This document shows, piece by piece, positions 3,599-38,644 of a DNA stretch of 38,644 bases. Source of the stretch: a virus. Position numbers and translations under genes: made by a program. Under the pieces are notes generated by a model, which did not search any database, was not told the origin of the DNA, and saw only the letters and a program-made list of their open reading frames with translations. The stretch covers positions 1 to 38,644 of IMG/VR virus record IMGVR_UViG_3300033182_000886. One strand, written 5' to 3'. The stretch's first letter is position 1. Each line of letters starts with the position of its first letter.

Positions 3599-4073
3599 TT
3601 ACTACCAGCTGGCTGACTGCATTCTAGCGGTATGCCCTAAAGCCGGCTCCACATCCATCAGAAAGGTGGCTGAAACCCAGGGTTTAAAAGAACTGCAACC
3701 CGCGGCAGTGGTCGAGGAACGCAATCACCAGGCGGTGGTATGGATGGTCCGCCATCCTATTACACGCTTAGGCAGTTGCTACAGGGCAGGCATCACCAAC
3801 TACAACACATGGGAAGACTTCGTAGACGCGGTGCTCGAGGGCGAGCAAAACAGACATTGGGGCCCGCAAGTGCCGCAAGTCACATACGCAGGCGTATTCC
3901 TACCTACACGGGTAAGGCGATTTGAAAGGTTAGCCAACCACACAAAAGGGCTGCCACACCTAAACGCCAGCCCAAAAATGGAACTTAACTACGCCTATAG
4001 ACGGGCGGAACTAGACAACCTTTACATTGAGGATCTAGACAAATGGGAAACCGTAGTAAAAACAACGGCGTAG
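3564..4073 (+). CDS. Short PAPS-dependent sulfotransferase
   Basis: A 169-residue protein with both PAPS-binding signatures of sulfotransferases: a 5'-phosphosulfate loop, C-P-K-A-G-S-T-S, at about residues 24-31, and a 3'-phosphate motif, V-R-H-P-x3-R-x2-S-x-Y, at about 62-73. Family members move sulfate from PAPS to hydroxyls of carbohydrates or proteins. This one is short (usual length 250-300), so the acceptor domain is minimal. The start is uncertain: TTG at 3564 is used, no ATG or GTG is in frame, and there is no strong Shine-Dalgarno. Its place between the exported adhesin-like genes and terminase suggests that it modifies a host glycan or the phage fibres. Function is inferred from motifs; the substrate is unknown. 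Confidence 0.65.
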   Translation: MTTPSGAPVSASYYQLADCILAVCPKAGSTSIRKVAETQGLKELQPAAVVEERNHQAVVWMVRHPITRLGSCYRAGITNYNTWEDFVDAVLEGEQNRHWGPQVPQVTYAGVFLPTRVRRFERLANHTKGLPHLNASPKMELNYAYRRAELDNLYIEDLDKWETVVKTTA

Positions 4074-13666: not shown

Positions 13667-15114
13667 GGATACCCTTTGGTGAGTTCAACCCTGACCAGCC
13701 CGGCATTGCGGGCGGCAACGTGGTTAAAAACGTTGTGCCCCATGCTCAAGCGTATGGCTCTCTGCAGGCCCTACAGGCGTTCACTGGAGCGGTTTCTAGC
13801 GCCTCTAAGGTGCTGGCAGGTACATGTGCCACAGATTCATCAGGGACGCTGTATAGCCACTGTGGCACGGCTACGCGCCTGGAAGAACTGCAGACATCAG
13901 ACCAGACCTGGGACAATGTATCCAAGGCAGGTAACTACTCCGGTGCTGTAGATTGGGAATGGGCGCAGATTGGTGACCGCCTGATAGCGGTGGATATTTC
14001 CAACACCACGCAGTATTTCGACCTAGGCACCTCGAGTTTGTATGCGGACCTTGCGGGGTCACCGCCTAAAGCCAAGCACGCCGCGGTCGTTAGAAATTTT
14101 GTGGTGTTGGGTAACGTGGACCAATCGTCCACGGTGTATCCCAACCGGTTGGTGTGGTCAGGCTACAACAATTCCGAGATTTGGACGCCTTCGCGGGCTA
14201 CGCAATCCGACCAACGGGACTTGCGAGGGGAATTTGGCGCGATTCAACGCATTGTAGGCGGGCAAAACGGCGTGATATTCCAGCGCCACGCCATATCCAT
14301 GATGAGCTACGTTGGTCCGCCCGTGATATTCAACATCGACGTAGTAGAGCGGCAGCGCGGGTTGCTGGCACCCAAAGCGCTGGGGGTGGCCGGCAGGAAC
14401 ATGTTCTTCCTTTCTGATGATGGTTTTTATGCGTTCTCTCCTGGGGGTGGGGCGCGTCCTATTGGTGTTGAGCGGGTAGACCGGTATTTCTTCGGCCAAG
14501 CTGCCGAGACAGAACTGAAGAACATCCAGTGCGCAGTAGACCCGAGCAATAAGTTGGTGTTTTGGGCGTTCAAGTCCAGTTCTGGCGCAACCGATTTTGA
14601 TAGGGTGATTAGTTACAATTGGGGAGCGGATAAGTGGGGCTGGGGCGAAACGGACGTTCAAGGGCTGGTGCAGTTCGCTACCAGCATTTATAACCTTGAG
14701 GATTTGGACGCCATCAGCGCAAGCATTGACGCACTGACCGCATCGCTGGATTCGGGCGGGTACGGATCGGACCGGTTGAGCCTGGCGGGCTTCACAACGG
14801 ATTACAAACTAGGCTCTTTCACGGGCAGTTACCTGGATGCGCAGCTGCAAACGCCGGAGTTTGGCGATGCTCGCGGTTTGCTCGAGGTACGCCCTTTGGT
14901 GGCCGGGCAAAGCCCAACCATCACCATAGAGCACCTTTACCGCAATCAATTAACTGACAACCTCACATCCACTAACGCCAAAATGGTGAATGCAAAGGGC
15001 ACGGTTGATTTCAGGAACAACGCAAGATTTAACCGCGTCAGGGTCAATATCAGCGGCAACTTTAACGTTGCTGTAGGTGTTGATGTTGACATTAAACAGA
15101 CAGGAAAACGCTAA
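13663..15114 (+). CDS. Tail nozzle/hub beta-propeller protein
   Basis: GTG at 13663, overlapping the previous TGA, gives 483 residues starting R-I-P-F-G-E-F-N-P-D. Repeated beta blades (D-R-L-I-A-V-D, V-V-L-G-N-V, N-R-L-V-W-S-G-Y-N-N, M-F-F-L-S-D-D-G-F-Y-A-F, L-V-F-W-A-F-K-S) resemble the propeller-like nozzle or DNA-stabilisation proteins (gp10-like) of podoviruses. It would cap the portal channel and hold the tail tip. The assignment is by pattern and position. Confidence 0.75.
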   Translation: MRIPFGEFNPDQPGIAGGNVVKNVVPHAQAYGSLQALQAFTGAVSSASKVLAGTCATDSSGTLYSHCGTATRLEELQTSDQTWDNVSKAGNYSGAVDWEWAQIGDRLIAVDISNTTQYFDLGTSSLYADLAGSPPKAKHAAVVRNFVVLGNVDQSSTVYPNRLVWSGYNNSEIWTPSRATQSDQRDLRGEFGAIQRIVGGQNGVIFQRHAISMMSYVGPPVIFNIDVVERQRGLLAPKALGVAGRNMFFLSDDGFYAFSPGGGARPIGVERVDRYFFGQAAETELKNIQCAVDPSNKLVFWAFKSSSGATDFDRVISYNWGADKWGWGETDVQGLVQFATSIYNLEDLDAISASIDALTASLDSGGYGSDRLSLAGFTTDYKLGSFTGSYLDAQLQTPEFGDARGLLEVRPLVAGQSPTITIEHLYRNQLTDNLTSTNAKMVNAKGTVDFRNNARFNRVRVNISGNFNVAVGVDVDIKQTGKR

Positions 15115-15971
15115 TGGCGGAATTGAAAGATTTAAGCACCACAGACGCCTCTAATAACGGTTCTGCGGCGAATGCGGGCTTTGCTGAGGGCATGGCACCC
15201 TCAGACGTAAACAACGCTGCACGGGCACTAGAGGGGATGCTGGCGCGGTGGTTGGCGGATAACAATGGGACGTTGACCACGGGCGGGAGTTCTAACGCCT
15301 ACACGCTGGCGGCCCCAAATCAGACCATATCAGCATACTACGATGGGTTGACGTTGATGTTTGAGGCGAACCACACGAACACTGATGCGGCAACCCTTAA
15401 CGTCAACTCTCTAGGGGCACAAAGTATTCTGCGTCCTGACGGTGGTGCGTTAAAGGCAGGGGCAATCACATCAGGGGGGCGTTATACGGTGTGCTATGAC
15501 GGAACCAATTTCTTGCTTGTCGGTGCAGATACATTATCTTCCGGCACCTGGACACCGGTTCTAACGTGTTCCACACCCGGCAGCTTGGCTGTCAGCTATA
15601 CAAAACAAACGGGCAACTACACCAGAAACGGAACCCAAGTATTTTTTGGGTTTGATCTGAGGTTTACGATTACTGACGCAACCGGCGCAAGCGGTGCGGC
15701 CAGAATTACCGGCCTTCCTTTTGCTTCTGACGCGTCCAAAGTTACGACGCTTCACCCAGCACAGACGTATGATGTTAGCGGCCCTGGCGCAGTCGCTTGG
15801 CCTACAGGGGTTAGCACTCTGTTCGGCTATATACAAGCGGGGACGCAGTATGTCCAAATATTTGGCAATGGAGATGGCGGCGTAAATCAATCATTTGACA
15901 TTGATGTTTGGCCGGCGGGTGATCTTTGCCAGATTCGCGTCACCGGCGCTTATGAAACAGACGAGGCTTAG
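15114..15971 (+). CDS. Tail fibre-like protein
   Basis: A 285-residue protein. Residues 1-45 (S-A-A-N-A-G-F-A-E-G-M-A-P-S-D-V-N-N-A-A-R) match the start common to many phage tail-fibre proteins. It continues with repetitive beta segments (A-A-T-L-N-V-N-S-L-G, L-R-P-D-G-G-A-L-K-A-G) and a C-terminal domain with G-T-W-T-P-V-L. It overlaps the nozzle gene by one base. Probably trimeric and distal on the tail. No signal peptide, unlike the exported proteins in the same genome. Confidence 0.78.
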   Translation: MAELKDLSTTDASNNGSAANAGFAEGMAPSDVNNAARALEGMLARWLADNNGTLTTGGSSNAYTLAAPNQTISAYYDGLTLMFEANHTNTDAATLNVNSLGAQSILRPDGGALKAGAITSGGRYTVCYDGTNFLLVGADTLSSGTWTPVLTCSTPGSLAVSYTKQTGNYTRNGTQVFFGFDLRFTITDATGASGAARITGLPFASDASKVTTLHPAQTYDVSGPGAVAWPTGVSTLFGYIQAGTQYVQIFGNGDGGVNQSFDIDVWPAGDLCQIRVTGAYETDEA

Positions 15972-15973
15972 CA

Positions 15974-16603
15974 ATGCCGTTTCCAACCTATAAACCTGCC
16001 GACAACGTTGGGCAGATGAGTCCTTACATGCAACAGGCGTTCAACCTATCAGGCGTGGATCAGAACCGCCAAGCCTCACCCGGACCTGCGCCTGGATTGC
16101 CTGCGCCGCTAATTCCAGGCGATCACTTTTCGTTGGGCGGTTTTACGGGTGCAGTGCCGCAGGGTCGGAGGTGGGAACAGCTGCGGCAGTATTTGGCGGG
16201 GCTTGCTGACACGCCCGGGGCCATCCCGCAAGGGCGTAGATGGTCTGATTTGCGGGCGTTCATTGAGCAAGCGCAAGCGTCCACTCAAACGCCTCAAGGG
16301 TTTACTGGCGCAGTCCCGCAAGGCCCGCGATGGGGCCAGCTGCGCCAATATCTGGCGGGTGCCGTGGCAACACCGGGCGCCGTCCCGCAAGGTCCGCAGT
16401 GGAGCGATTTAAGAGACTATTTAGCATCGCAGGGGGTTGGCAATGTGGCAGGGGGTGCAGTGCCGGAGAGTCCGATGTGGGACCAGATGCGCTGGATGGA
16501 TTCAAGAGACTATTTAGCATCGCAGGGGGTTGGCAATGTGGCAGGGGGTGCAGTCCCAACAAGTGCTGGAGGCATGGCCTTCGGTGGAAACCCGTATCTC
16601 TAA
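15974..16603 (+). CDS. Repeat protein with P-Q-G-x-x-W-x-x-L-R units
   Basis: A 209-residue protein. After about 55 residues it consists of tandem units of about 25-31 residues, each with G-A-V-P-Q-G-x-x-W-x-x-L-R-x-Y-L-A-x. I count five clear units (starting near residues 58, 80, 108, 132 and 156) and a final partial one. The last two units share a perfect 51-bp DNA duplication. Trp and Arg in each unit may stack on DNA or on a neighbouring virion protein. It sits before the internal virion genes, so an ejected or tail-associated role is plausible. Family not recognised. Confidence 0.65.
   Translation: MPFPTYKPADNVGQMSPYMQQAFNLSGVDQNRQASPGPAPGLPAPLIPGDHFSLGGFTGAVPQGRRWEQLRQYLAGLADTPGAIPQGRRWSDLRAFIEQAQASTQTPQGFTGAVPQGPRWGQLRQYLAGAVATPGAVPQGPQWSDLRDYLASQGVGNVAGGAVPESPMWDQMRWMDSRDYLASQGVGNVAGGAVPTSAGGMAFGGNPYL
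16411..16554 (+). repeat. Perfect 51-bp in-frame direct repeat
   Basis: Bases 16411-16461 and 16504-16554 are identical, spaced by 93 bases (31 codons), encoding R-D-Y-L-A-S-Q-G-V-G-N-V-A-G-G-A-V twice. Each copy also holds AGGGGG followed by an out-of-frame ATG-TGG-CAG. In the second copy that ATG is in frame with the following gene. Confidence 0.95.
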
Positions 16604-20665: not shown

Positions 20666-21020
20666 GCTTTCTCTAGCCTCAGGTGAACAATTAGCGCAGT
20701 CTAGACCAAGTGGCACGACCGCGGTAAGCGCGTTTACAGCCAGCCTCGTTACGGAAGTGACGTTGATTGCTATATGCAACACAACGGCGGGTGCTGTGAA
20801 CTACTCCCTCTATCATGACGATGATGGTAGCACGTTTGACCAGACTACGGCGCTTCACTACTCGCAGAGTATCTCGGCAAACTCTACTGTCTATGTGGGA
20901 GCAGAGTCGATTGGCGCGGGTATTGTGGTTAAGCCGGATGGTCAGATAGGCATACAGACCAGTTCCGCCAACGCGCTGACGTTTACGCTTTATGGCGTGA
21001 CTGAGGCTGTGGCGAGGTGA
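20664..21020 (+). CDS. Small structural protein, last gene of the late operon
   Basis: ATG at 20664 gives 118 residues. The beta-rich sequence (Y-S-L-Y-H-D-D-D-G-S-T-F-D, I-G-I-Q-T-S-S-A-N-A-L-T-F-T-L-Y-G) resembles small virion proteins in phage tail regions. AAGGAC is 12-15 bases upstream as a weak ribosome site. The frame is open further upstream to 20625, but the residues there look non-conserved. It converges with, and overlaps by 38 bases, the PEP-CTERM gene. Confidence 0.65.
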   Translation: MLSLASGEQLAQSRPSGTTAVSAFTASLVTEVTLIAICNTTAGAVNYSLYHDDDGSTFDQTTALHYSQSISANSTVYVGAESIGAGIVVKPDGQIGIQTSSANALTFTLYGVTEAVAR

Positions 21021-21531
21021 CGCGCCTAAGCAAACCCAACAATCCCAACCCAATCAGCCCTAACGTACCTGGCTCAGGCACAGAGACAGTCCCTAGATAA
21101 CTCAATGTATAGGTACCTGATACAGTCCCGTTGGTCAGCCCTGGAGCGCCATAGGAGAAGTTTCTATGGTGCGGCCAGGACTCATGTGCGACCTGAAACT
21201 GGAATTCGTTTTCTATTGCGGTGACGTTGCAGAAACCCGGCGAGCAGCTGTTACCGAAAAAGCTGGTGTTCCAGTTATCCCGAATCTTCCCATCCTCCCA
21301 AGTCCACAATTCAGCCCACAGCACATCGTTTTCATCGTAGTGAATGCCGTTCCAGGTGAAATCGAAATCGACAAACGACACGCCGAAGTGTCGGCCTGAT
21401 GGTAGAGCTTCGTAGGAAAAGACTGCGGTGCCGGACATACCGCCTGCTTCAACGTCCATCTGGTATTTATGGATGATGCCCGCATAGGCAGAAGAAGAAG
21501 CAAACAGAAGAAGAAAAACTATGTGACGCAT
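20983..21531 (-). CDS. PEP-CTERM exported protein
   Basis: A 182-residue protein with a Sec signal (M-R-H-I-V-F-L-L-L-F-A-S-S-S-A-Y-A, cut about residue 17), a beta-rich mature domain with two Cys (S-C-S-P-G-F-C), and at 151-170 a textbook PEP-CTERM sorting tail: V-P-E-P-G-T, a hydrophobic Gly/Leu helix, then R-R. Exosortase of the host would cut at this tail and route the protein to the surface or matrix. The sequence runs about 12 residues past the RR, longer than usual. AGGAT lies 6 bases before the ATG. Such genes are rare in phages; it looks like a lysogenic conversion (moron) gene. Mature function unknown. Confidence 0.85.
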   Translation of the reverse strand: MRHIVFLLLFASSSAYAGIIHKYQMDVEAGGMSGTAVFSYEALPSGRHFGVSFVDFDFTWNGIHYDENDVLWAELWTWEDGKIRDNWNTSFFGNSCSPGFCNVTAIENEFQFQVAHESWPHHRNFSYGAPGLTNGTVSGTYTLSYLGTVSVPEPGTLGLIGLGLLGLLRRVTSPQPQSRHKA

Positions 21532-22520: not shown

Positions 22521-23375
22521 TTATAACCCACACATCCCTTCGCACTCATCCATGAAACTGAAGCCCAACTGATCCGCAGCAGGGTCCGTAAAATCTACCT
22601 CCCGTAAAGGAATCAAAGACGAATGAACGTATAGATTTTCTGTTGTTCCGCGCACCCCGTGGCGAATTGCTTCATCGACCTGGCATGCGTCCTCAAACGA
22701 TACCGGATCGTTCTCTTTCATATCCAACCACATCGCCCGGTCATGGTAAGGGCAAAATGTGCAAGAGGATTTTGCTGGAAATTCGTTATACCCGTTATCC
22801 CGCATCCACTCCAAACAATGCAGCCGAGTCATTTTTCTTTCTATTAGCGGCCAGCGGTGACGCAGCCATTTTTCCCGGGGAGCTTTCATGCGTTGCATTT
22901 CATCCCATGAAATCCCTATCCACTGCTCTACTAGAATCTTACCTTTTGGTGCGCGTTGCCTGGGTTTTAACCCAGCCAATTCCCTTACCTTTTTTGTGAT
23001 CGGCTGAATTTTGTATTCATTTGTACATTGGCGCCTTAGCATCCCACCACCATTTGCTGAAGTAGTGAAAAAAGGTGCCGCTGCAAACCGATTTGTATAC
23101 TCACCGTCCTCGTTTGGGGTTGAAGAATCAATAATATTCTGGCGCAAACTCCCCTTGCTCACCCGACAAACGGGAAACGGCAACTGTGTCTCCAGCCAAT
23201 CGAGCCAATCATACACACGCCGAGGTTCTGCCTTCGTGTCCGCAAAAATGGCACAATCAGGCATTGGATCTATCTCACCATGGGCGGCCATTAGTGCCAT
23301 AACGGAAGATTGAACCCCCGCCCCCAAACTAATTACCGTTAACATCCCGGTGTCTTCTTCCACTAAATCACTCAT
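22521..23375 (-). CDS. PAPS-reductase-like (adenine nucleotide alpha-hydrolase) protein
   Basis: ATG at 23375, with GGAGG upstream, gives 284 residues. The core begins M-L-T-V-I-S-L-G-A-G-V-Q-S-S-V-M-A-L-M, a variant of the PP-loop (S-G-G-x-D-S). A-I-F-A-D-T and a conserved R-x-C-T-x-E-x-K-I segment with a later C-T-F-C-P pair follow. These are the marks of phage members of the PAPS reductase/ATP-PPase family (COG0175-like), often linked with thiolation or nucleotide modification; the substrate is not predictable. The first ten residues come from the 33-bp start repeat; the original start was probably the Met at residue 11. Confidence 0.8.
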   Translation of the reverse strand: MSDLVEEDTGMLTVISLGAGVQSSVMALMAAHGEIDPMPDCAIFADTKAEPRRVYDWLDWLETQLPFPVCRVSKGSLRQNIIDSSTPNEDGEYTNRFAAAPFFTTSANGGGMLRRQCTNEYKIQPITKKVRELAGLKPRQRAPKGKILVEQWIGISWDEMQRMKAPREKWLRHRWPLIERKMTRLHCLEWMRDNGYNEFPAKSSCTFCPYHDRAMWLDMKENDPVSFEDACQVDEAIRHGVRGTTENLYVHSSLIPLREVDFTDPAADQLGFSFMDECEGMCGL

Positions 23376-23379
23376 CTGC
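23347..23379 (-). repeat. 33-bp translation-start repeat, copy 2
   Basis: Same sequence as 22453-22485, here placing M-S-D-L-V-E-E-D-T-G in front of the native-looking Met of the PAPS-reductase-like gene. Confidence 0.95.
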
Positions 23380-23451
23380 CGCCTCCACTGCGAGTTCAAC
23401 TGCGCACATGGCGGCCCCTGTCTTCCTCAAGCTGCCCAGTAAGTGCGCATG

Positions 23452-29545: not shown

Positions 29546-30808
29546 ATGAACATCGACGCGAATTACGCCAAGTTCCTGAAAACAAAATTCAGCGGTTATC
29601 AGCCTATGGGCGGCGGGGCTTCTCAACCGTTGCATCATCGTCTTTTTCCATATCAAAAAACAGCAGTAGAGAAGTTGTTGGAATGCGGCAGGGGGGCTGC
29701 TTTTCTTGATACTGGCATGGGAAAAACCTCAATTCAGATAGAGTGGATACGACAGATCGACAAGCCATCCCTGATTGTTTGTCCTTTGGCTGTTGCAGAC
29801 CAAACCATAGCCGAAGCCCAGCAGTTCGGCGTTGAAATAACGAAGATGGGCGGCAGTCGGTTTGAGATTACAAACTACGAATCAATGCACAAAGTAGACT
29901 CGTCTAAATATCAGGCGGTTGTGTTCGATGAATCCTCAATATTCAAATCACTGAACAGCAAAACCAAGTCTATTGCCGAGCAGATGTTTGCTGAAACACC
30001 CTACAAACTGGCTTGTTCTGCAACCCCATCACCCAACGACCTTTTAGAGATTGGCAACCAGTCCCAGGTGTTAGGTGTCTTGCGCCAAGTCGATATGTTG
30101 TCCCGTTGGTTTGTGAACGATGCATCTAACACCGGCACGTGGCGGCTGAAGGGTCACGCGAGGTCCGACTTTTGGAATTGGGTTAACTCCTGGGCGTGTG
30201 TCGCCAGTTCTCCCGCAGACCTTGGTGATCTCGAAACAGATTTATCCCTACCTGAGTTGCGCGAACACGAATCTATTGTTGAGGAAACCGCGCGGGCGCA
30301 GGGAGGGTTGTTCGCTGAGATTGAATTGAGCGCGACCGGCATACGCCAATCGAAAAAACAAAGCTTGTCGGCGCGTGTGGATCGCTGCGCCGATCTGGTA
30401 GACACGAACGATTACGCTTTGGTCTGGTGTGACACAAACGACGAGTCAGACCTGATTGCTAAAAAGGTTGGCGGGGTTGAGGTCCGAGGGGATATGTCGA
30501 TTGAGGAAAAAGAATCTCGCCTTGTTGGGTTCTCTCGCGGTGACTTCAGGGTTCTTGTCACAAAGCCATCAATAGCTGGTTTCGGCATGAATTGGCAACA
30601 CTGTAACAACGTGGTCTTTGCAGGCGCTAACTATAGTTTTGAGCGGTATTACCAGGCTGTTAGACGATGCTGGCGTTTTGGGCAAAAGCGAGAGGTAGAC
30701 GCCAGTGTAGTTATGACGCCAAGCGAGCGGTTGATCTGGATGAAAACCAGAGAAAAAGCAGAACAACACAAAATGATGAGCGAAGAAGTGCGTCGGTGGG
30801 CAGCATGA
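29546..30808 (+). CDS. SNF2-like superfamily 2 helicase
   Basis: ATG at 29546 gives 420 residues (the frame opens at 29501). Motifs: Q-like L-F-P-Y-Q-K-T-A, Walker A D-T-G-M-G-K-T (55-61), D-E-S-S in place of DEAH (128-131), S-A-T-P-S-P-N-D (158-165), G-F-G-M-N-W-Q and Q-A-V-R-R-C-W-R-F-G-Q as motif VI. The unusual D-E-S-S is shared by phage SNF2-like helicases. It precedes a DNA methyltransferase and is likely the replication or remodelling translocase of the phage. Confidence 0.88.
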   Translation: MNIDANYAKFLKTKFSGYQPMGGGASQPLHHRLFPYQKTAVEKLLECGRGAAFLDTGMGKTSIQIEWIRQIDKPSLIVCPLAVADQTIAEAQQFGVEITKMGGSRFEITNYESMHKVDSSKYQAVVFDESSIFKSLNSKTKSIAEQMFAETPYKLACSATPSPNDLLEIGNQSQVLGVLRQVDMLSRWFVNDASNTGTWRLKGHARSDFWNWVNSWACVASSPADLGDLETDLSLPELREHESIVEETARAQGGLFAEIELSATGIRQSKKQSLSARVDRCADLVDTNDYALVWCDTNDESDLIAKKVGGVEVRGDMSIEEKESRLVGFSRGDFRVLVTKPSIAGFGMNWQHCNNVVFAGANYSFERYYQAVRRCWRFGQKREVDASVVMTPSERLIWMKTREKAEQHKMMSEEVRRWAA

Positions 30809-30975
30809 GAACAGACTTGATTATCAGCGAGGAGGCCAAAGAGTTGTTAGACGCTATACACGCCAACGACATAAACGCTATTCGACATGAGGCAATGCAA
30901 TTGTCTGCGGCGGCCATGCGGCTTGCCAATGAAGATGACGAGAATTTTATAAGGAGGTCAGGGTGTACGATGTAA
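30805..30975 (+). CDS. Small helical protein, unknown
   Basis: ATG overlaps the helicase TGA (ATGA) and gives 56 residues: I-I-S-E-E-A-K-E-L-L-D-A-I-H-A-N-D, A-M-Q-L-S-A-A-A-M-R-L-A. An all-helical acidic protein that carries the AAGGAGG ribosome site of the methyltransferase in its end. Family unknown. Confidence 0.6.
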   Translation: MRTDLIISEEAKELLDAIHANDINAIRHEAMQLSAAAMRLANEDDENFIRRSGCTM

Positions 30976-31802
30976 AGAACATGGATTGCGTAGAAGGTGT
31001 GGCCGCGCTGGAAGATCACAGCGTTGGGTTTTCGATTTACTCCCCGCCCTTTGCTGACGTCTTTGTGTACAGCGACGACGTACGCGATATGGGCAACTGT
31101 CAAAGCACAGAGGAGTTTATCCAGCACTATTCATTTTTGCTTGATGAATTGGTCCGAGTCATGAAGCCGGGGCGAATAGTCGCGGTGCATTGCAGCGATT
31201 TACCGACATCAAAGTTCAAGGATGGGTTTATCGGGCTACGCGACTTTTCAGGGGATTTGATACGCGCCCACCAAAAAGCCGGATTCATCTATCACTCAAG
31301 GATCACGGTCTGGAAAGACCCAGTGACGGAGATGCAGCGCACGAAAGCGCTGGGACTGTTGTACAAACAACTCCAAAAAGACAGCACGAAAAGCCGCCAG
31401 GGGCTTTGTGACTATGTGCTGGTATTCCGTGCGCCGGGAGAGAACGCCGAGCCAGTAGCGCAGGATTCAGGAGTGTTCCCTGTCCAGCAATGGCAGGAGT
31501 GGGCCTCTCCTGTGTGGATGGACATAAACCAATCAAACACGCTGAACGTACGTCAGGCGCGAGACAATCGAGACGAAAAACATATGTGTCCGCTGCAACT
31601 GGACCTGATCGAACGTTGCGTTTTGCTTTGGTCAAATCCAGGGGATTTGGTGCTTTCGCCTTTTACGGGTATTGGCAGCGAAGGTGTAGTTTCTCTACAG
31701 AACGGCAGGCGCTTTGTTGGATTTGAACTGAAGCCGAGCTACTACAAGGTAGCGATGAGCAATCTCAAAAACATTGGATCCCAACAAGGGTTATTCGCAT
31801 GA
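30963..31802 (+). CDS. DNA methyltransferase (N6-adenine or N4-cytosine type)
   Basis: GTG at 30963, 5 bases after AGGAGG, gives 279 residues. Catalytic motif IV is S-P-P-F (27-30); motif I lies late as L-S-P-F-T-G-I-G-S-E-G, so the order is that of beta-class amino-methyltransferases. H-M-C-P-L-Q-L-D-L-I-E-R follows the usual pattern. No restriction partner is adjacent, so it likely protects or marks phage DNA. Recognition sequence unknown. Confidence 0.88.
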   Translation: MYDVKNMDCVEGVAALEDHSVGFSIYSPPFADVFVYSDDVRDMGNCQSTEEFIQHYSFLLDELVRVMKPGRIVAVHCSDLPTSKFKDGFIGLRDFSGDLIRAHQKAGFIYHSRITVWKDPVTEMQRTKALGLLYKQLQKDSTKSRQGLCDYVLVFRAPGENAEPVAQDSGVFPVQQWQEWASPVWMDINQSNTLNVRQARDNRDEKHMCPLQLDLIERCVLLWSNPGDLVLSPFTGIGSEGVVSLQNGRRFVGFELKPSYYKVAMSNLKNIGSQQGLFA

Positions 31803-32338
31803 ACATCGACGCCCATCGAGCCAGATGGAACACAGGCGACGGAACACCGCACAGTGACTATGTACTCAAAATGTTCCGCTATGTCGGTAAGCAAACAGAT
31901 CCATCAGTTGTTCAGATGTATGTAGACCGCTTATCCGACATTTCGCTAACCGAGCTTCAGGCCGTATGGGAATCTCTACAGCCGCGTGATTCAGTCAAAC
32001 CGGTAGTTCCAGGCATTGAGGCGTTAAGACAGGCACACGCAACCCGCAAACGCGATCAGATAAGACGCATTGAAGAAGCGAGAGAGAAAAAGCGTCGGGT
32101 TGCGCATGGCGAAAAACACTACGCCAAAAAAGCGACAAACGCAGCTTATGCAAACCGCGTTATGAACCACATCGGTTTAGTGGTTCCGGTATCCATACCG
32201 AGCTACTACGGCCGGTTTGATTACAAAGCCTGTGCCGAATCAGCACCTTTGCCGCCTGTAGAAATAAGCGACCACACGGCGTACTGGAAAGACCTATGGA
32301 GCCGATTTGAGCAGCAATGGAAGGAATACGCAGCATGA
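31799..32338 (+). CDS. Replication-module protein, unknown
   Basis: A 179-residue basic protein. Its start (M-N-I-D-A) and 14 DNA bases equal those of the helicase start. Residues 20-80 are helical (D-Y-V-L-K-M-F-R-Y-V-G, I-S-L-T-E-L-Q-A-V-W-E-S-L) and 85-115 strongly basic (R-K-R-D-Q-I-R-R, K-K-R-R-V). Position before the DnaA-like gene suggests helicase loading or priming, but no motif proves this. Confidence 0.55.
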   Translation: MNIDAHRARWNTGDGTPHSDYVLKMFRYVGKQTDPSVVQMYVDRLSDISLTELQAVWESLQPRDSVKPVVPGIEALRQAHATRKRDQIRRIEEAREKKRRVAHGEKHYAKKATNAAYANRVMNHIGLVVPVSIPSYYGRFDYKACAESAPLPPVEISDHTAYWKDLWSRFEQQWKEYAA

Positions 32339-32625
32339 ATACTGATTGGGAAATAGCCCAAGCCGTTATTGAAGCGGTGGAAAAGGCTTATGGCATAGCG
32401 GATTTATCTGAAGACACGCGGAGACGCCGAATTGCGAAAGCCCGGCAGTTAGCGTTTTACATTATTCGGGACTTAACGGACATGTCCGCACCGGACACTG
32501 CTGAAATGCTAGGCCGCAAAGACCACACAACGGTTATATATGGCTGCAAGGCGATTGAGAAAGAGCCGAAATACATGGCATTCGTGCCGAGGCTTAAAGC
32601 GGATGCGCAGAGGTTGTTGGGTTGA
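32335..32625 (+). CDS. Stand-alone DnaA domain IV protein
   Basis: ATG at 32335 overlaps the previous TGA and gives 96 residues. It has the origin-binding signature of DnaA: A-R-Q-L-A-F-Y-I-I-R-D-L-T, then A-E-M-L-G-R-K-D-H-T-T-V-I-Y-G-C-K-A-I-E (about 56-75). The AAA+ part is missing. It may bind a phage origin and bring host DnaA or helicase, or compete with host DnaA at its boxes. Confidence 0.82.
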   Translation: MNTDWEIAQAVIEAVEKAYGIADLSEDTRRRRIAKARQLAFYIIRDLTDMSAPDTAEMLGRKDHTTVIYGCKAIEKEPKYMAFVPRLKADAQRLLG

Positions 32626-32999
32626 GCGCAGCCGAGGACGAACTGGCCCTGCAGCTCAAGGCCGCTGGTATTGAGTTTGAGCGCGAAGTGAAGTTTCACC
32701 CGAAGCGCAAGTGGCGGTTTGACTTTGTTTTGGGTGACGGCTTGGCAGTCGAAGTTGAAGGCGGGCTGTATGTCCAGGGTCGCCATAGTCGCGGCGCTGG
32801 CATGGAGAAGGATCTAGAAAAATACCAAGAGGCTATGAAACTTGGATGGAACGTTTACCGGGTCAGCCCTCGCATGATTAAGCAGGGTGCGGCTTTGGAG
32901 ACCATTTCGATACTGATGGGGGAACAAATAAGGAGAAACCCTCATGGCAGGTGTCAGAAAGTACGACCCAAATTTTCTCATGGCGTTTGCGCGGACTGA
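32622..32999 (+). CDS. PD-(D/E)XK nuclease-like protein
   Basis: TTG joined with the DnaA-like TGA gives 125 residues. The core reads F-E-R-E-V-K-F-H, W-R-F-D-F-V-L-G-D-G-L-A-V-E-V-E-G-G, an Asp then E-x-E as in PD-(D/E)XK enzymes, with N-V-Y-R-V-S-P-R following as in Vsr-like folds. Possibly a repair or junction nuclease. Its end overlaps the next gene by 56 bases. Confidence 0.68.
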   Translation: MSAAEDELALQLKAAGIEFEREVKFHPKRKWRFDFVLGDGLAVEVEGGLYVQGRHSRGAGMEKDLEKYQEAMKLGWNVYRVSPRMIKQGAALETISILMGEQIRRNPHGRCQKVRPKFSHGVCAD

Positions 33000-34134
33000 T
33001 ACGCAGCGCGAGCACTTACAGGCCGTTATCGACTGCGGTATGAATAACCGGGCGGCTGGCAGGAAACTAGGCATCAACCACAGAGGCATTGCCAGGACTC
33101 TGGAAACCCTGGCTAGACGCGCAGCCAAAGAGGGTGTTGCGCCAGACCAGAACGTAAACCATCCGACCATGCCGGGCTTTTCCACGAAACGTGTATCCAC
33201 GGCATACAACGGCGACGGTGACACGGTACTGCAATGGCATATCCAAGAGCCTGAAAAGAAATCCCTCGAAGAAATCGTTGAAGGCATTCAAGAAGCGTTC
33301 ACCGACATAAAACCTGCCAAACCCATTAAAGCGCCTGCCAAAGTGAACAGTGATTTGGCTGCGTTCTACCTGATAGGAGACCATCACTTCGGTATGTACG
33401 CCTGGAGTGAAGAAACAGGCGGTGATGACTACGACACGGCAGAGGCCGAGCGCTTACTGATTTCTGCGTGTCAGAAACTTATCGCTCGGGCGCCCGACGC
33501 AGAGGTGGGTTATCTGGTGAACCTGGGCGACTTCCTACACGCGAATGACAGCACCTCCACCACGCCGTTCAGTAAGAATTTGTTGGACACGGACGGGCGT
33601 ATGGGCCGCGTAGGGCGGCAGGCAGGGCTGCTCATAAAAAGCCTTGTGGAGCTGATGCTGCACAAACACCAGCGCGTAGAAGTGATTAACTCCCGAGGCA
33701 ACCATGACCCGGATGCATCGCTGTGGTTGAACGAGGTCTGCCGGGCGTATTTCGCCAAAGAGCCACGCGTGAAGGTGCATGACAACTTCAACAAGTTTGT
33801 GTGGGTGCGGTTCGGCACGAATCTGGTGGTGACCCACCACGGTGACAAAATCAATTGGGCGCGGATGTACGAAGCGGTCACACGCAACCTGTCGAAAGAA
33901 TGGGGTGAATGTGAGCACCGCTTTGGCTGGGTAGGGCACTTGCACCATGAAGAATCAAAAGAATTGGGCGGAATGCGGTTCCAGCGTTGGGGTGTACTGG
34001 CTCCGAACGACGCCTGGCATGCGGGTTCTGGTTACGGATCGGAACGCACCATGTCGTGTGTCGTGCTCCACAAAACCAAAGGCCGCGATTCCATCATTGA
34101 AGTGAACGCAAAGGACTCAGATGACAGTCATTAG
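32944..34134 (+). CDS. Mre11/SbcD-like metallophosphoesterase with N-terminal HTH
   Basis: A 396-residue protein. Residues 25-60 are a HTH (N-N-R-A-A-G-R-K-L-G-I-N-H-R-G-I-A-R-T-L). The phosphoesterase has all metal motifs: G-D-H-H-F-G (145-150), N-L-G-D-F-L-H (193-199), G-N-H-D (about 251), V-T-H-H-G-D and G-H-L-H-H. This combination occurs in phage replication modules. It is probably a DNA nuclease or phosphatase acting on DNA; no ATPase partner (SbcC-like) is seen. Confidence 0.83.
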   Translation: MAGVRKYDPNFLMAFARTDTQREHLQAVIDCGMNNRAAGRKLGINHRGIARTLETLARRAAKEGVAPDQNVNHPTMPGFSTKRVSTAYNGDGDTVLQWHIQEPEKKSLEEIVEGIQEAFTDIKPAKPIKAPAKVNSDLAAFYLIGDHHFGMYAWSEETGGDDYDTAEAERLLISACQKLIARAPDAEVGYLVNLGDFLHANDSTSTTPFSKNLLDTDGRMGRVGRQAGLLIKSLVELMLHKHQRVEVINSRGNHDPDASLWLNEVCRAYFAKEPRVKVHDNFNKFVWVRFGTNLVVTHHGDKINWARMYEAVTRNLSKEWGECEHRFGWVGHLHHEESKELGGMRFQRWGVLAPNDAWHAGSGYGSERTMSCVVLHKTKGRDSIIEVNAKDSDDSH

Positions 34135-34321
34135 AAACACAGAACTGATGCGCATTGCCCGCCAAGAGCAGCTTGAATCCTGGGTATTGGTGGGTGTATT
34201 CCCTGATGGGTCCACGTACTGCGCTTGGAGCGATGACATGTTCAGGGCCAATTGGCTGCTGGATAAGGGCAAAGAAATCTGCATGGACCAGGTAAGCGAC
34301 GAACCGGACGAGGCGGGGTAA
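34121..34321 (+). CDS. Small protein, unknown
   Basis: A 66-residue protein overlapping the metallophosphoesterase by 14 bases. Acidic C-terminus, W-V-L-V-G-V-F-P-D-G-S-T-Y-C-A-W as a beta hairpin. No family known to me. The next gene starts on the next base. Confidence 0.55.
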   Translation: MTVIRNTELMRIARQEQLESWVLVGVFPDGSTYCAWSDDMFRANWLLDKGKEICMDQVSDEPDEAG

Positions 34322-34693
34322 GTGCCCAACATCGACCCTTTCTACTTCTGCTTGTACGCAGTCCGCAAGCGTAATGGGATGGCCAAGACAGGCTACCCTA
34401 AGCAGGTGCCGTGGTACACGCCGCCCAAATTGGGAGATGTGATGCAAGAACCAAAAGAAATCATCACAGACGATGATTGGACCGTGGCTGAGTCCATAGA
34501 GCGGTGCGTCAATGAAATCCGCGCCGTTCGACCCGTGCTAGCGGATTGCTTCGACATATGGGAAGGGGCTTACGAGGGCGCGCCTGCAAGCCGCTCAGAG
34601 CGTTGTAGGCAGTGGGCCGTGAAGTACCAAGCCTGCAAGAAAAACGCCAATCGTTGCAAAAAGGAGATTGAACGCCTCATGTACGGCCAGTAG
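34322..34693 (+). CDS. Possible late antiterminator (Q-like position)
   Basis: A 123-residue protein from GTG. W-Y-T-P-P-K-L-G-D-V-M is followed by a helical domain (I-T-D-D-D-W-T-V-A-E-S-I-E-R-C-V-N-E-I) and a basic Cys-containing end. It lies directly before a promoter and terminator that open the late region, as lambda Q does. I cannot identify the family from residues alone; the role rests on position. Confidence 0.4.
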   Translation: MPNIDPFYFCLYAVRKRNGMAKTGYPKQVPWYTPPKLGDVMQEPKEIITDDDWTVAESIERCVNEIRAVRPVLADCFDIWEGAYEGAPASRSERCRQWAVKYQACKKNANRCKKEIERLMYGQ

Positions 34694-34722
34694 TTGCAAA
34701 TTGTCCCCGTTTGAAGGACAAT
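34694..34722 (+). promoter_or_regulatory. Late promoter candidate (PR'-like)
   Basis: -35 TTGCAA (34694-34699), exactly 17 bases, -10 GACAAT (34717-34722). An inverted repeat ATTGTCC/GGACAAT covers spacer and -10, and GCAGTC-TAG-GACTGC (34726-34740) lies at the expected start of the transcript. Confidence 0.6.
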
Positions 34723-34747
34723 CTGGCAGTCTAGGACTGCTATCACT

Positions 34748-34773
34748 AAACCGCCCATTCGAGGCGGTTTTTT
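34748..34773 (+). terminator. Terminator right after the late promoter (tR'-like)
   Basis: AAACCGCC with GGCGGTTT (8 bp), 7-base loop, six T. It stands about 20 bases after the expected transcription start and before the lysis genes, so late expression would need antitermination. Confidence 0.88.
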
Positions 34774-34791
34774 CGTTTTTGGAGTTTTATT

Positions 34792-35112
34792 TTGTCTGTT
34801 GAGTCGGAGGGCGAACGCACGCGCAAGTGGCTGAGCCTTGAAATCATAATTGCTGTGTTAATCCCGATGCTGGCTGGAGCGTTTGCATACGGGCAGCTGA
34901 GCGAGCAGGTAGAAGAAAACGCGCGCAATGCCGAACAGTTGGCCCGTGAAGCTAAACATTCTTCCGAAGCAATGCAGGAGATTAAAGTGGACGTTGAAGT
35001 GATTAAAGCAAAAATAGACACCATCAACGAAAACATCAAAAAGGCGAGCCAGAATGCGGATGAAAACAGCCGCACACTGCAAGAGATTTTAAGACGATTA
35101 CCGCCGAACTGA
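34792..35112 (+). CDS. Single-TM coiled-coil membrane protein of the lysis region
   Basis: TTG with GGAG 8 bases upstream gives 106 residues. A basic head, a TM segment at about 16-34 (I-I-I-A-V-L-I-P-M-L-A-G-A-F-A-Y-G), then a long coiled coil (E-E-N-A-R-N-A-E-Q-L-A, I-K-V-D-V-E-V-I-K-A-K-I). The shape resembles XhlA-like or holin-associated proteins. First gene after the late terminator. Confidence 0.6.
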   Translation: MSVESEGERTRKWLSLEIIIAVLIPMLAGAFAYGQLSEQVEENARNAEQLAREAKHSSEAMQEIKVDVEVIKAKIDTINENIKKASQNADENSRTLQEILRRLPPN

Positions 35113-35522
35113 TTACGTTAGAGCGCTTCGCTTACTTTCCATGTGGAACACTCGGCTACGTACCGGAGCTGCACATCTACACGCTGGAGCCGCCGTGGAA
35201 AAACAATAAGCGCGGCGAGAGTTGCATACCTGAAGGCACTTATGAAGTGCGGCCGGATGAGGAAGGGCGTTATATCGGGTACCCAGAATTACAGGATGTT
35301 CCGAACCGCTCAGAAATCGTCATCCACACAGCCAACCATGTGCACCAGCTAGAGGGCTGTATAGCTCCGGGCTTACATTGGGGTGTGGACAAGCAAAAAC
35401 CCTCTGTATGGCAGTCCAGATTGGCTATGGAGCGTGTTAGAGGGCTGGGTGATACGTTCACGATTCAAGTCACCCACAAAGAAGCGATTTTAGCCCCGGC
35501 CCCGTCAAGCCCACTTAGTTGA
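35109..35522 (+). CDS. DUF5675 protein, putative lysis enzyme, with non-standard start
   Basis: The domain begins at once with L-I-T-L-E-R-F-A-Y-F-P-C-G-T-L-G-Y and continues L-E-P-P-W-K-N-N, S-C-I-P-E-G-T-Y-E-V, V-P-N-R-S-E-I-V-I-H, L-E-G-C-I. This is the DUF5675 pattern, placed among phage lysis genes. Upstream the frame is open only to 35064 and has no ATG, GTG or TTG. The likely start is CTG at 35109, fused with the previous TGA; ATT at 35097 is another choice. GTG at 35247 would remove the first third of the domain. 137 residues from 35109. Confidence 0.75.
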   Translation: MITLERFAYFPCGTLGYVPELHIYTLEPPWKNNKRGESCIPEGTYEVRPDEEGRYIGYPELQDVPNRSEIVIHTANHVHQLEGCIAPGLHWGVDKQKPSVWQSRLAMERVRGLGDTFTIQVTHKEAILAPAPSSPLS

Positions 35523-35560
35523 TTTACACCACAGAGCGGTGAGCACGGGGCTAACCCTTA

Positions 35561-35636
35561 AACCCTGCCCGCATGTTGTGACACATGTTTTCCCAAATCC
35601 TCCCCCTCTATCGTTTGGGATAGGGCAGGGTTTTCT
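35561..35636 (+). terminator. Large hairpin terminator within the lysis region
   Basis: AACCCTGCCC (35561-35570) pairs with GGGCAGGGTT (35623-35632), with an inner TCCCAAA/TTTGGGA stem, then TTTTCT. It may attenuate transcription between the DUF5675 and the spanin-like genes, or stabilise the mRNA end. Confidence 0.65.
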
Positions 35637-35672
35637 AATCATGGACAGGCAAACCGCCAAGGATAGTGACTC

Positions 35673-35804
35673 ATGAAATTTGAACGATACCTGGCCCAGG
35701 CAGTAACGCAGGTTGAAACTTTTGTAACGGAGAACCCTCTTGCAACGGCTGTTGTGGGTGGTGCTGTCGTTATTTTTATTGCCCTCTTGCTCCTCCGTAC
35801 CTAG
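35673..35804 (+). CDS. 43-aa single-TM protein, i-spanin-like position
   Basis: ATG after AAGGAT gives 43 residues: F-E-R-Y-L-A-Q-A-V-T-Q-V-E-T-F, then a C-terminal TM, A-V-V-G-G-A-V-V-I-F-I-A-L-L-L-L. The next gene, a lipoprotein, starts inside it in another frame, as Rz1 is nested in Rz, but this partner is much shorter than Rz and has its TM at the end. Confidence 0.5.
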   Translation: MKFERYLAQAVTQVETFVTENPLATAVVGGAVVIFIALLLLRT

Positions 35805-35970
35805 TTGTCAGCCCGGCAGTACGGCACTGCAGTGTGTGCAGTGGGAGCCTAATAAAGTGCGGGCTTATCAGATTCACCAGATGTGCTTGGCAGCGCGAGC
35901 GCAAGCCATATCCAGCCGTTCGGTGTTGGTGGTGATGTACGAAAGCAAGCCGTACCAGTGCCGGAACTGA
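35740..35970 (+). CDS. Small lipoprotein, Rz1/o-spanin-like
   Basis: TTG at 35740 gives 76 residues with a lipoprotein signal, L-S-L-F-L-L-P-S-C; the lipobox Cys is about residue 17. Mature part Cys-rich, about 60 residues. Its nesting in a small membrane-protein gene within the lysis region suggests the outer-membrane spanin partner. There is no Pro-rich stretch, so another outer-membrane role is possible. Confidence 0.55.
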   Translation: MQRLLWVVLSLFLLPSCSSVPSCQPGSTALQCVQWEPNKVRAYQIHQMCLAARAQAISSRSVLVVMYESKPYQCRN

Positions 35971-35982
35971 TTCGAGGGAAAC

Positions 35983-36483
35983 ATGAAGCTATTCAAGAAA
36001 CCGCAGGTGCTGCTGATCCTGCTGTTTATTGGCTTGTTCTTTTGGGCCTTGAATGCTGAAGCCGAGGAAAAGGCGTTCGAGCTGGGTCTGGCCGCTGGGT
36101 TCTACCACAGCGAGCAGCACATCACGCAGCGCATCGGATTCAACTACGCGGACAAGTGGATCGCGCAGTACGAAAGACACGGGGGCAACGGATATGACAT
36201 CTCTAACAGCATCTCAGCACAGCGCCAGGTGGTCTTCCGACAAGGGCGCAAGCTTGAGCCGTATCTACGTTTGGGGGTTTCGTATTTCGATGTTCCTGTT
36301 CGTGATCTGGATGCTGATGAAGTTCGTTATCTGGTACATGAAAGACTCACGTTTTCCCTCGGAGCGGGAGTCCGGCTCTCCAAAGTGATGAGCCTGGGCT
36401 TTGAGCACAATTCAACCGCAGGCCGCAGTGACCCCAACCGCGGCCTGGATCGTTTTTACCTCCAATTCACTATGTGGTTGTAG
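35983..36483 (+). CDS. PagL-like lipid A 3-O-deacylase, outer-membrane beta-barrel
   Basis: A 166-residue protein with a signal peptide (L-L-I-L-L-F-I-G-L-F-F-W-A-L-N-A-E-A) and a beta-barrel pattern ending in F-Y-L-Q-F-T-M-W-L, an outer-membrane C-terminal Phe/Trp-type strand. Near the end H142-N-S144-T-A-G-x3-P-N-x-G-L-D156 matches the PagL active-site spacing His, Ser (+2), acid (+14); here the acid is Asp instead of Glu. PagL removes the 3-O acyl chain of lipid A. In a prophage or during infection it would change LPS. Confidence 0.72.
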   Translation: MKLFKKPQVLLILLFIGLFFWALNAEAEEKAFELGLAAGFYHSEQHITQRIGFNYADKWIAQYERHGGNGYDISNSISAQRQVVFRQGRKLEPYLRLGVSYFDVPVRDLDADEVRYLVHERLTFSLGAGVRLSKVMSLGFEHNSTAGRSDPNRGLDRFYLQFTMWL

Positions 36484-36485
36484 CC

Positions 36486-36899
36486 ATGACTGGAATTGTC
36501 CCTTTTTTGCCGTTGATCGGTAAAACGCTGGACCGGCTGTTTCCAGGCCCGGAAGCGCGTAACGAAGCCAAGATTCGTCTGCTTGAGCTTGAGCAGGAAG
36601 GCCAGCTTGCAGAGCTGAATGCGGAGCTGCAGTTGATGCTGGGCCAGATGGATGTGAACAAGAAAGAGGCCATATCCAGTCATTGGTATGTGGCCGCATG
36701 GCGCCCAACGGTGGGTTGGGTGTCCGCTTTAAGCCTGGCCTGGATGTACGTTGTGTATCCAACCGTGACTTGGTTTGGTGTGGATGCGCCCGCGCTCGAT
36801 ATTTCGCAGTTGATGATTCTGCTGTTGGGCATGTTGGGCATTGGCGGTATGCGCACGTTCGACAAGGTTAAAGGCAAGGACACCACAAACCTGTCATGA
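36486..36899 (+). CDS. 3-TM holin family protein
   Basis: ATG at 36486 gives 137 residues. A charged coiled coil (about 25-60: E-A-R-N-E-A-K-I-R-L-L-E-L-E) is followed by W-R-P-T-V-G-W-V-S-A-L-S-L-A-W, another TM and L-L-L-G-M-L-G-I-G-G-M-R-T-F-D-K. This is the phage/GTA 3-TM holin pattern. It would form the inner-membrane lesion at lysis. Confidence 0.82.
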   Translation: MTGIVPFLPLIGKTLDRLFPGPEARNEAKIRLLELEQEGQLAELNAELQLMLGQMDVNKKEAISSHWYVAAWRPTVGWVSALSLAWMYVVYPTVTWFGVDAPALDISQLMILLLGMLGIGGMRTFDKVKGKDTTNLS

Positions 36900-37000
36900 G
36901 GAAGTATTTAGCCCTGCTAGTGCATGTTGGACCTTGGGGTATCGAAGTGGAAGGCATGGACAATGTGGACCGGGGTGAGGATTGGCGGACTAGATGGTAA
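36896..37000 (+). CDS. 34-aa protein between holin and exported genes
   Basis: ATG overlaps the holin TGA, and the TAA overlaps the next gene's start, filling the gap exactly: M-R-K-Y-L-A-L-L-V-H-V-G-P-W-G-I and an acidic/Trp end. Tight overlaps on both sides suggest translation. Function unknown. Confidence 0.5.
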   Translation: MRKYLALLVHVGPWGIEVEGMDNVDRGEDWRTRW

Positions 37001-37806
37001 AAGAACTACTAAAAGTCGGGCTATTAGTATTTTGCGTGCTGGGGTTCGTGTGGGCTATGGCCGCGAATGCTGCAGACATAGACTTGGGCGACTTTGAGCT
37101 GTGCTCTGCCACGTCAACATACTACGCCGACGGGGGTTGCCCGTGCGACCTTTCGATAACGGCGGGGCCGAGCGTGGACGCAACTACAGCGGACGCGGAT
37201 GTTGTCCTGACGGGGGACAACTGTGCTGGGACGTTGTACGTGTGCATGGATGTGACAGCAGACACCGTTACAAGGGCTGACTGCATCGCGAACACCGGCG
37301 TGACGGACAGAAACACGAGCACGCCATCCGGCGCTGGGACTGAATCATTCGCTGGCGCGTCAGAATTCGCCGGGTCAGCGGAAACACAGTACAGAATCTG
37401 GGCTTTCCTTGCGCCCTCGGGGAACTATCAAAACCGCATCACGTTCGATGCGGGCACAACCGCTACGTTCACCACGAACGCTGTGGCAGGCGGTGGGGGC
37501 ACTGACTTAACGGGTGCTGGGCTGTTCATCGCCCAAGGCGATGCTGGTAATACCGACGAAACCCCTACGGGCACGGCAGGAACACAAACTTCGGGTTGTA
37601 CCTCAATGGCCAACTCGTGCTCCGAGTTCTCTCACATAGGTACTCCGGCATCAGGGCAGAACGTTTACCTCGCGGAAGGTGGTGTTTGGGCTGACGACAC
37701 ATGGACAATCAACTGGTCTGGCACAAGTGGCGACCCTGTAGTGATCGGTTGTTACTTTGACGAAGGCGACGACGACGGGAACCCAGTACTTTGTACAAGC
37801 TTCTAA
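36994..37806 (+). CDS. Exported Cys-rich protein ending in a beta-helix-start module
   Basis: A 270-residue protein with a signal peptide (L-L-V-F-C-V-L-G-F-V-W-A-M-A-A-N-A). Residues about 30-165 form a Cys-rich fibronectin-like region, then a Gly-rich linker and a C-terminal part, V-Y-L-A-E-G-G-V-W-A-D-D-T-W-T-I and V-V-I-G-C-Y, which is homologous to the end of the next protein (Y-R-L-C-E-G-A-V-F-E-D-Q-T-L-T-I and V-V-V-G-C-Y). Both stop after the first helix turn. It overlaps the next gene by 16 bases. Likely a surface-interaction protein. Confidence 0.7.
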   Translation: MVKELLKVGLLVFCVLGFVWAMAANAADIDLGDFELCSATSTYYADGGCPCDLSITAGPSVDATTADADVVLTGDNCAGTLYVCMDVTADTVTRADCIANTGVTDRNTSTPSGAGTESFAGASEFAGSAETQYRIWAFLAPSGNYQNRITFDAGTTATFTTNAVAGGGGTDLTGAGLFIAQGDAGNTDETPTGTAGTQTSGCTSMANSCSEFSHIGTPASGQNVYLAEGGVWADDTWTINWSGTSGDPVVIGCYFDEGDDDGNPVLCTSF

Positions 37807-38558
37807 TACTGCTGGTGCTGGCAATGCCAGCGTTTGCTGAAGAGATTGACTGGACCCGCAAAGGTTACTACGTAGTTTATGACGCGGAAGGCAACTTTGT
37901 ATCCCGCCATGTGAACGACATTGAAGCAGCTATGAGTGCCGCCAATCATGCGTTTAACTCAGGCAACACGGGCACCCTGCAGTACCGAGTGGAATCTCCC
38001 TACTACGAGGTCACGGTGGTGATTCCTGAAGTGGCTGAAACCGAGCCTGAGCCTCCTCCTGAGCCTCCTGTGGATACGGGTGAAGAACTGGACCCCAATA
38101 CCGTGTTTGCGTGTGACGGGGGTGAGAACGGCACCACAGTGGAGCCTACGGGGTCTGACTCAAATTCCGGCCTGTGGAAAGACGGGCAACCGGACCCAGT
38201 GAAGTCTTTGCGGAGACTCGAACAGATTGCAGAGGCCAGCCCTGATGGCGTTGACTACCGACTCTGCGAGGGCGCTGTGTTTGAAGATCAGACGCTGACG
38301 ATCCGCAAAAGCGGCGATGTTGGCAAGTACAACCGTGATCTGCTCGCTGGTGCTGACGAGAAAACAAAGCGCATCAAGAACTACCGAAACTTGGAGGGGT
38401 GGAGGCGCGAAGATGAAAACTACGTGGTAGTCGGATGCTACAAAATACTGAACGGCGTTCCACGCCCGTGCATGGACTCATACCCAATTTGCGAAACAGG
38501 AATTGCAACAAAATGTTTAGATCCATTGGATTATTCATTGCGCTCCTCTGCGGGGTAG
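37791..38558 (+). CDS. Exported protein with Pro/Glu linker and beta-helix-start module
   Basis: TTG at 37791 gives 255 residues: signal peptide (M-Y-K-L-L-I-L-L-V-L-A-M-P-A-F-A), an alpha/beta domain of about 75 residues, a linker with P-E-P-P-P-E-P-P, and the beta-helix-start module with the G-S-D-S-N-S-G loop. The C-terminal 151 residues recur at 2-457. The frame ends where the next signal-peptide gene starts. On a circular map this is the same gene as the fragment at 2-457. Confidence 0.75.
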   Translation: MYKLLILLVLAMPAFAEEIDWTRKGYYVVYDAEGNFVSRHVNDIEAAMSAANHAFNSGNTGTLQYRVESPYYEVTVVIPEVAETEPEPPPEPPVDTGEELDPNTVFACDGGENGTTVEPTGSDSNSGLWKDGQPDPVKSLRRLEQIAEASPDGVDYRLCEGAVFEDQTLTIRKSGDVGKYNRDLLAGADEKTKRIKNYRNLEGWRREDENYVVVGCYKILNGVPRPCMDSYPICETGIATKCLDPLDYSLRSSAG

Positions 38559-38644
38559 CACACGCAGTAGAAGTTAAGCCGGAGATCAACGGCACATATG
38601 AAGCGTCATGTCGCCTAACCGCATCGTCTGCCCCATGCGACGTC
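38102..38644. repeat. Right copy of the terminal direct repeat
   Basis: Equal to 1-543 at both flanks; the central part (about 38234-38516) differs at about forty bases. See the left copy. Confidence 0.9.
38513..38644 (+). CDS. Exported beta-helix protein, N-terminal part (3' end cut by window)
   Basis: This is the start of the gene seen complete at 412-1875, with one change in the signal peptide (Leu2 to Phe). It is cut by the window end after 44 codons and would continue at base 544 on the circular genome. Confidence 0.75.
   Translation, partial: MFRSIGLFIALLCGVAHAVEVKPEINGTYEASCRLTASSAPCDV

Follow-up and report, generated by a model that had tools for sequence, protein, structure and literature searches.

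Fibres of tailed phages assemble in the cytoplasm, and a chain of five genes in the late operon of such a phage, each of whose products begins with what appears to be an export leader, raises the question of where these proteins act and on what. The earlier note on this DNA had proposed that they are secreted proteins, unlike virion fibres. Here we assess that proposal from the gene order, the export signals, the relatives of the proteins and the selection acting on one of the genes.

The cassette and its setting

The material is one virus record, 38,644 bases long (IMGVR_UViG_3300033182_000886), from metagenomic DNA, and 'the window' refers to this whole stretch. Matches to phage families identify a portal, a scaffold, a major head protein and a large terminase, and the P22-like head gene set suggests that the virus is a podovirus. 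An integrase and a CI-like HTH repressor are encoded in the same genome, and thus the phage is probably temperate. The features on which the argument depends are as follows, the five cassette genes being designated g1 to g5.

15114 to 15971, plus strand: probable virion tail fibre, leaderless (PHROG 4900 tail protein, E 9e-7, residues 55-120)
20983 to 21531, minus strand: PEP-CTERM protein with signal peptide and C-terminal sorting signal VPEPGTLGLIGLGLLGLLRR (TIGR02595, 19.3 bits, cut-off 16)
35983 to 36483, plus strand: predicted PagL-type lipid A 3-O-deacylase with signal peptide (PF09411, 28.1 bits, cut-off 23)
36474 to 36899, plus strand: holin with three transmembrane segments, left border of the cassette (PHROG 3427, E 1e-34; PF11351)
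36994 to 37806, plus strand: g1, 270 aa; predicted signal peptide cleaved near ANA/AD; 10 mature cysteines
37791 to 38558, plus strand: g2, 255 aa; TTG start; predicted signal peptide AFA/EE; 6 mature cysteines
1 to 457, plus strand: second, diverged copy of the 3' part of g2, a strain allele at the contig join (93% repeat)
412 to 1875, plus strand: g3, 487 aa; ATG start, at 38513 in the tail copy; predicted signal peptide AHA/VE; 10 mature cysteines
1862 to 3247, plus strand: g4, 461 aa; predicted signal peptide VCA/AI; LamG/ConA-like lectin domain; 8 mature cysteines
3257 to 3598, plus strand: g5, 113 aa; small protein; predicted signal peptide AFA/LG; 2 mature cysteines
3564 to 4073, plus strand: sulfotransferase-like gene without a leader, bordering the cassette (Sulfotransfer_2, E 0.0047, below cut-off)

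The cassette occupies 4.7 kb between the holin gene and the sulfotransferase-like gene. It is preceded, in order, by a DUF5675 gene and genes for a small transmembrane protein, an Rz1-like lipoprotein, the PagL-type protein and the holin, and the sulfotransferase-like gene that follows it leads into the small terminase, large terminase and portal. The five genes had been described as overlapping, which is true of three of the four junctions (16 nt at g1/g2, 46 nt at g2/g3 and 14 nt at g3/g4), but g4 and g5 are separated by 9 nt. A simple scan of the plus strand from 30000 to 38644 returned no sigma-70-type promoter-like site, which is consistent with transcription of the cassette by read-through from the upstream late genes.

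In two relatives (L005 and L006) a homologue of the sulfotransferase-like gene (E 1e-11) lies next to the holin, from which it is separated by 123 bp containing no cassette. Four others (L003, L009, L041 and L011) contain other large fibre-like genes upstream of terminase, all of them leaderless. The stretch is therefore variable and a frequent site of appendage-type genes, although not always at exactly the junction at which the cassette is found. The cassette thus has the appearance of an accessory late-gene insertion of five genes beside the lysis genes; its base composition agrees with that of the rest of the phage. Two genes of sulfur-metabolism type are present in the genome, the sulfotransferase-like gene and one encoding a PAPS reductase-family protein (22521-23399, minus strand, PHROG 424). 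The tail region at 15974-16603 (plus strand) contains internal repeats that encode repeated 'GAVPQG..W..LR.YL' motifs, the 62-bp units at 16400-16461 and 16493-16554 being 95% identical.

Circularization, which the earlier note had used to join the two ends of the cassette, is made reasonable by the ends of the window themselves. Positions 1-543 and 38102-38644 form an imperfect direct repeat (543 bp, 93% identity), and as a result the 3' part of g2 is present twice. Identity is exact over 1-132 and 416-543 (132 bases at the start and 128 at the end), flanks that are about one assembly word long, and all 39 differences fall between them. We infer that a circular assembly traversed both arms of a strain-variant bubble, each of them once, which would make the genuine circle about 38.1 kb long. 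Read in the g2 frame, the repeat copies differ at 32 codons, 24 of them synonymously and 8 with a change of amino acid (dN/dS 0.09). In either of the other two frames nearly all differences are replacements. The reading frames are the same in the two strain alleles. The silent-biased changes therefore identify g2 as a real gene under purifying selection. An origin of the repeat in a diversity-generating retroelement was rejected, as the differences extend over all bases and are synonymous in most of the changed codons. A ribosomal frameshift from g2 into g3 was likewise rejected: no slippery site is seen in both alleles, one allele has an upstream stop in the g3 frame, and the fusion would place a hydrophobic leader in the middle of a protein.

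Predicted export leaders and an apparently divided beta-helix

The claim that all five products begin with a clear signal peptide is borne out. The N-termini were evaluated with a home-made heuristic Sec/SPI scorer, not SignalP, and the value of the scores therefore rests on the controls. All five N-termini score between 8.5 and 9.5, far above background, and display a positive n-region, a hydrophobic core and an AxA-type cleavage site. The observed scores were reached by 0-6 of 2000 shuffled N-termini, and none of the 135 non-genic ORFs in the window scored 8 or more. Among genes of at least 90 aa, 7 of 48 in the window bear a leader, compared with 5 of 1,324 in 80 viral loci related through terminase. 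When these were considered together with 80 loci from bacterial genomes retrieved in the same way, no chain of leader-bearing adhesin-like genes was found near terminase in the ~160 loci, where leader matches fall mostly in short, scattered genes. The exception is a Hafnia alvei prophage-like locus (L101) in which four genes of 112-241 aa, ~2.5-4.8 kb upstream of its terminase match, score as leader-bearing, so this phage may not be alone in having such clusters.

The cysteines, which had been described as paired, number 10, 6, 10, 8 and 2 outside the leaders of g1 to g5. Every count is even, and because five even counts would arise by chance about once in 32, this constitutes support rather than proof. 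None of the five predicted cleavage sites has a lipobox with a +1 cysteine; LLAC at residues 8-11 of g5 is, in our judgement, too short to form the leader of a lipoprotein, and no PEP-CTERM signal or other anchor is visible in the sequences of g1-g5. Sec export of g1-g5, disulfide-type proteins by their cysteines, is a prediction well supported by the sequence.

The export theme exceeds the five genes. The PagL-type protein retains HxS, with H142 and S144 invariant, and its PNxGxD motif aligns; this catalytic-type motif marks the protein as a predicted lipid A deacylase. Its gene lies directly before that of the holin, overlapping the longest holin ORF by 10 nt, and the enzyme could contribute to lysis or modify the receptor. 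The AlphaFold model is of low confidence, and the searches run revealed no relatives in phage or viral collections. The PEP-CTERM protein, encoded on the opposite strand, also has no relatives in phage or viral collections, and its sorting signal implies a host with an exosortase. These two proteins extend the range of phage envelope genes.

Of the folds that had been assigned to the cassette, two are recovered above the curated Pfam cut-offs: g3 matches the beta-helix family PF13229 (E 4e-7, 30.2 bits, cut-off 25.9) and g4 the ConA/LamG family PF13385 (E 3.4e-7, 30.9 bits, cut-off 27.6). The proposed fibronectin-like parts are not supported, because g1, g2 and g5 match no Pfam domain, fibronectin included, at E up to 5. 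The small g5 has no family match, the AlphaFold model of g3 is of low confidence (pLDDT 31), and sequence searches of the PDB yielded nothing useful.

The relatives of g3 place the first three genes in a different light. A search of 369 genomes from the class of one relative's host identified only one well-matching bacterial genome, in which two homologues are encoded in tandem (E 4.9e-13 and 1e-9); a search of 289 genomes of another class found no member of the family. Each of the two homologues is a single chain, of 519-542 aa, in which a signal peptide and an N-terminal cap precede the helix, and they adjoin four sulfotransferases and a glycosyltransferase, which points to a surface-polysaccharide-type locus. 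The alignment with g3 extends from just past the cap to the end (27-28% identity) and includes five common cysteines. In g3 the signal peptide is joined directly to the right-handed beta-helix and the cap is missing; the cap is recognized instead at the C-terminus of g1 and, weakly, of g2. Thus g1 comprises a signal peptide, a domain without family assignment and the cap, with no helix body, while g2 consists of a signal peptide, a domain likewise lacking a family assignment, a Pro-rich linker and a second, more diverged cap. The g1 cap matches a bacterial homologue at E 2e-7, and the cap profile scores 30.4 bits on g1 against 8.0 for the best of 2000 shuffles; on g2 the signal is weak (9.9 against 7.7 bits). 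The two proteins resemble each other at E 2e-4. In three more bacterial-type sequences the cap and its downstream region again form one chain. Judged by these alignments, g1-g3 resemble pieces of a single secreted beta-helix family that complement one another, a split form of the bacterial protein, and do not have to be whole adhesins; the simplest history would be that of tandem paralogues that underwent complementary losses. Two matches to the bacterial cap in records filed as phage (L172, OR846592.1; L173, MT836890.1) were set aside because, over the stretch examined, both look like fragments of bacterial chromosomes.

Possible roles of the predicted exported proteins

Secreted glycan-acting proteins are favoured by a consistent envelope theme, which embraces PagL, the PEP-CTERM protein, the sulfotransferase-like gene and the lectin and beta-helix folds. 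The full explanation, that g1-g5 are a late, Sec-exported, disulfide-type glycan-acting cassette released at lysis, is one to which we would give only slightly less than an even chance. The leaders, family matches, gene order and coding selection on g2 are read from the sequence, and it is from these that we infer function. The proteins would be made late in infection, exported to the periplasm, oxidized and then freed at lysis, or else secreted by the host. Products g1-g3 would work as a split beta-helix, two cap proteins with one helix body, possibly assembled in the periplasm, which binds or cuts the host surface polysaccharide with the help of the lectin-like g4 and the small g5, and PagL would alter lipid A alongside them. 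By clearing or masking surface glycan the cassette would prevent progeny from being trapped on debris and so allow them to reach new cells. Beta-helix and LamG folds may, however, also serve purely as adhesins, and catalytic residues were not identified. The more specific proposal, that two caps and one helix form a split complex that is assembled in the periplasm, made with the lysis genes, released by lysis and active on surface polysaccharide, is tentative and, taken as a whole, rather unlikely. Were it true, a tailed phage would have made from a bacterial beta-helix protein a secreted arm separate from its virions.

It could be argued, as the main rival, that the exported proteins remain at the cell surface and block receptors, conferring superinfection exclusion or lysogenic conversion. 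The integrase and CI-like HTH gene, which suggest a temperate phage, are in keeping with such a role, as are PagL and the PEP-CTERM protein, which likewise target the envelope. Llp of phage T5 provides a precedent for an exported receptor blocker and, in addition, keeps phage from adsorbing uselessly to fragments of lysed cells (PMC9586334). The five proteins, however, have no visible lipobox, PEP-CTERM signal or other anchor, and their genes lie on the late strand between holin and terminase without a promoter-like site, so a lysogen would not be expected to express them. We consider receptor masking a doubtful explanation of the cassette.

Virion appendages that mature through the periplasm, being exported, forming disulfides and joining virions only at lysis, would also account for the leaders. 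Beta-helix and lectin folds suit tailspikes, and three of the relatives (L003, L009 and L041) encode fibre- or spike-like proteins upstream of terminase near lysis genes; the fibre-like genes that relatives have here, however, all lack a leader. The phage has another probable fibre gene, the leaderless one at 15114 (L007 contains no gene at the place of 15114-15971), g1-g5 match no PHROG tail family, and the fibres of tailed phages assemble in the cytoplasm. Periplasmic maturation is thus improbable. Secreted surface or post-lysis proteins fit better than virion fibres, a preference that rests on leaders above background, even cysteine counts, the signal peptides of the bacterial homologues of g1 and g3 and the leaderless fibre-like genes of relatives. 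In this respect the contention of the earlier note that the proteins are secreted, for which it named surface coating, competitor blocking or a post-lysis role, is well supported as regards export, while its view of them as adhesins is not required in the sense of intact ones. That g1-g3 are broken tandem paralogues, decaying or captured bacterial secreted genes that are now functionless, would explain why helix and cap, found together in the bacterial homologues, are missing from g1 and g2 and from g3, respectively, but is very improbable given that the frames are the same in both strain alleles, g2 is under selection, every fragment retains a good leader and an even cysteine count, and the base composition is that of the phage.

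Relation to known systems

Glycan-acting phage proteins are normally regarded as parts of the virion. If the favoured explanation, a secreted glycan-acting cassette, is correct, a tailed phage also conditions the surroundings of the dying cell, besides making virions, and the cassette offers a testable split-protein system. Pattern-based scans, which mainly reach close relatives, found no homologues of g1-g5 in annotated phages or of g1-g4 in IMG/VR, and the absence of similar phage cassettes is therefore provisional. The literature covered, which excludes most subscription journals, describes no secreted beta-helix phage cassette or phage PEP-CTERM protein.

Several known systems are close to parts of the locus. 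The phage PagL shares the family score, signal peptide and HxS...PNxGxD motif of PF09411 proteins and differs by its setting, in a phage and adjoining a holin. T5 Llp and similar exclusion proteins are likewise phage-encoded, exported and envelope-acting; Llp, however, is one outer-membrane lipoprotein, whereas g1-g5 are a five-gene chain of mostly large proteins of glycan-binding type that lack a lipobox. Among phage beta-helix tailspikes and depolymerases, the spike-like ORF at L003:7590-9431, a probable beta-helix that also lies upstream of terminase, is leaderless, in contrast to g1-g5, which have leaders and no tail-family match. The bacterial secreted beta-helix proteins (PF13229 with an N-terminal 'YYVxxxGxDxxDG' cap), exemplified by L165:8699-10327, have a signal peptide, cap, helix and several conserved cysteines, and g3 aligns with them over its whole mature length. 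In all five sequences seen, however, the bacterial-type form is one polypeptide, whereas in the phage different genes of a late operon encode the cap and the helix, and every product carries a leader of its own.
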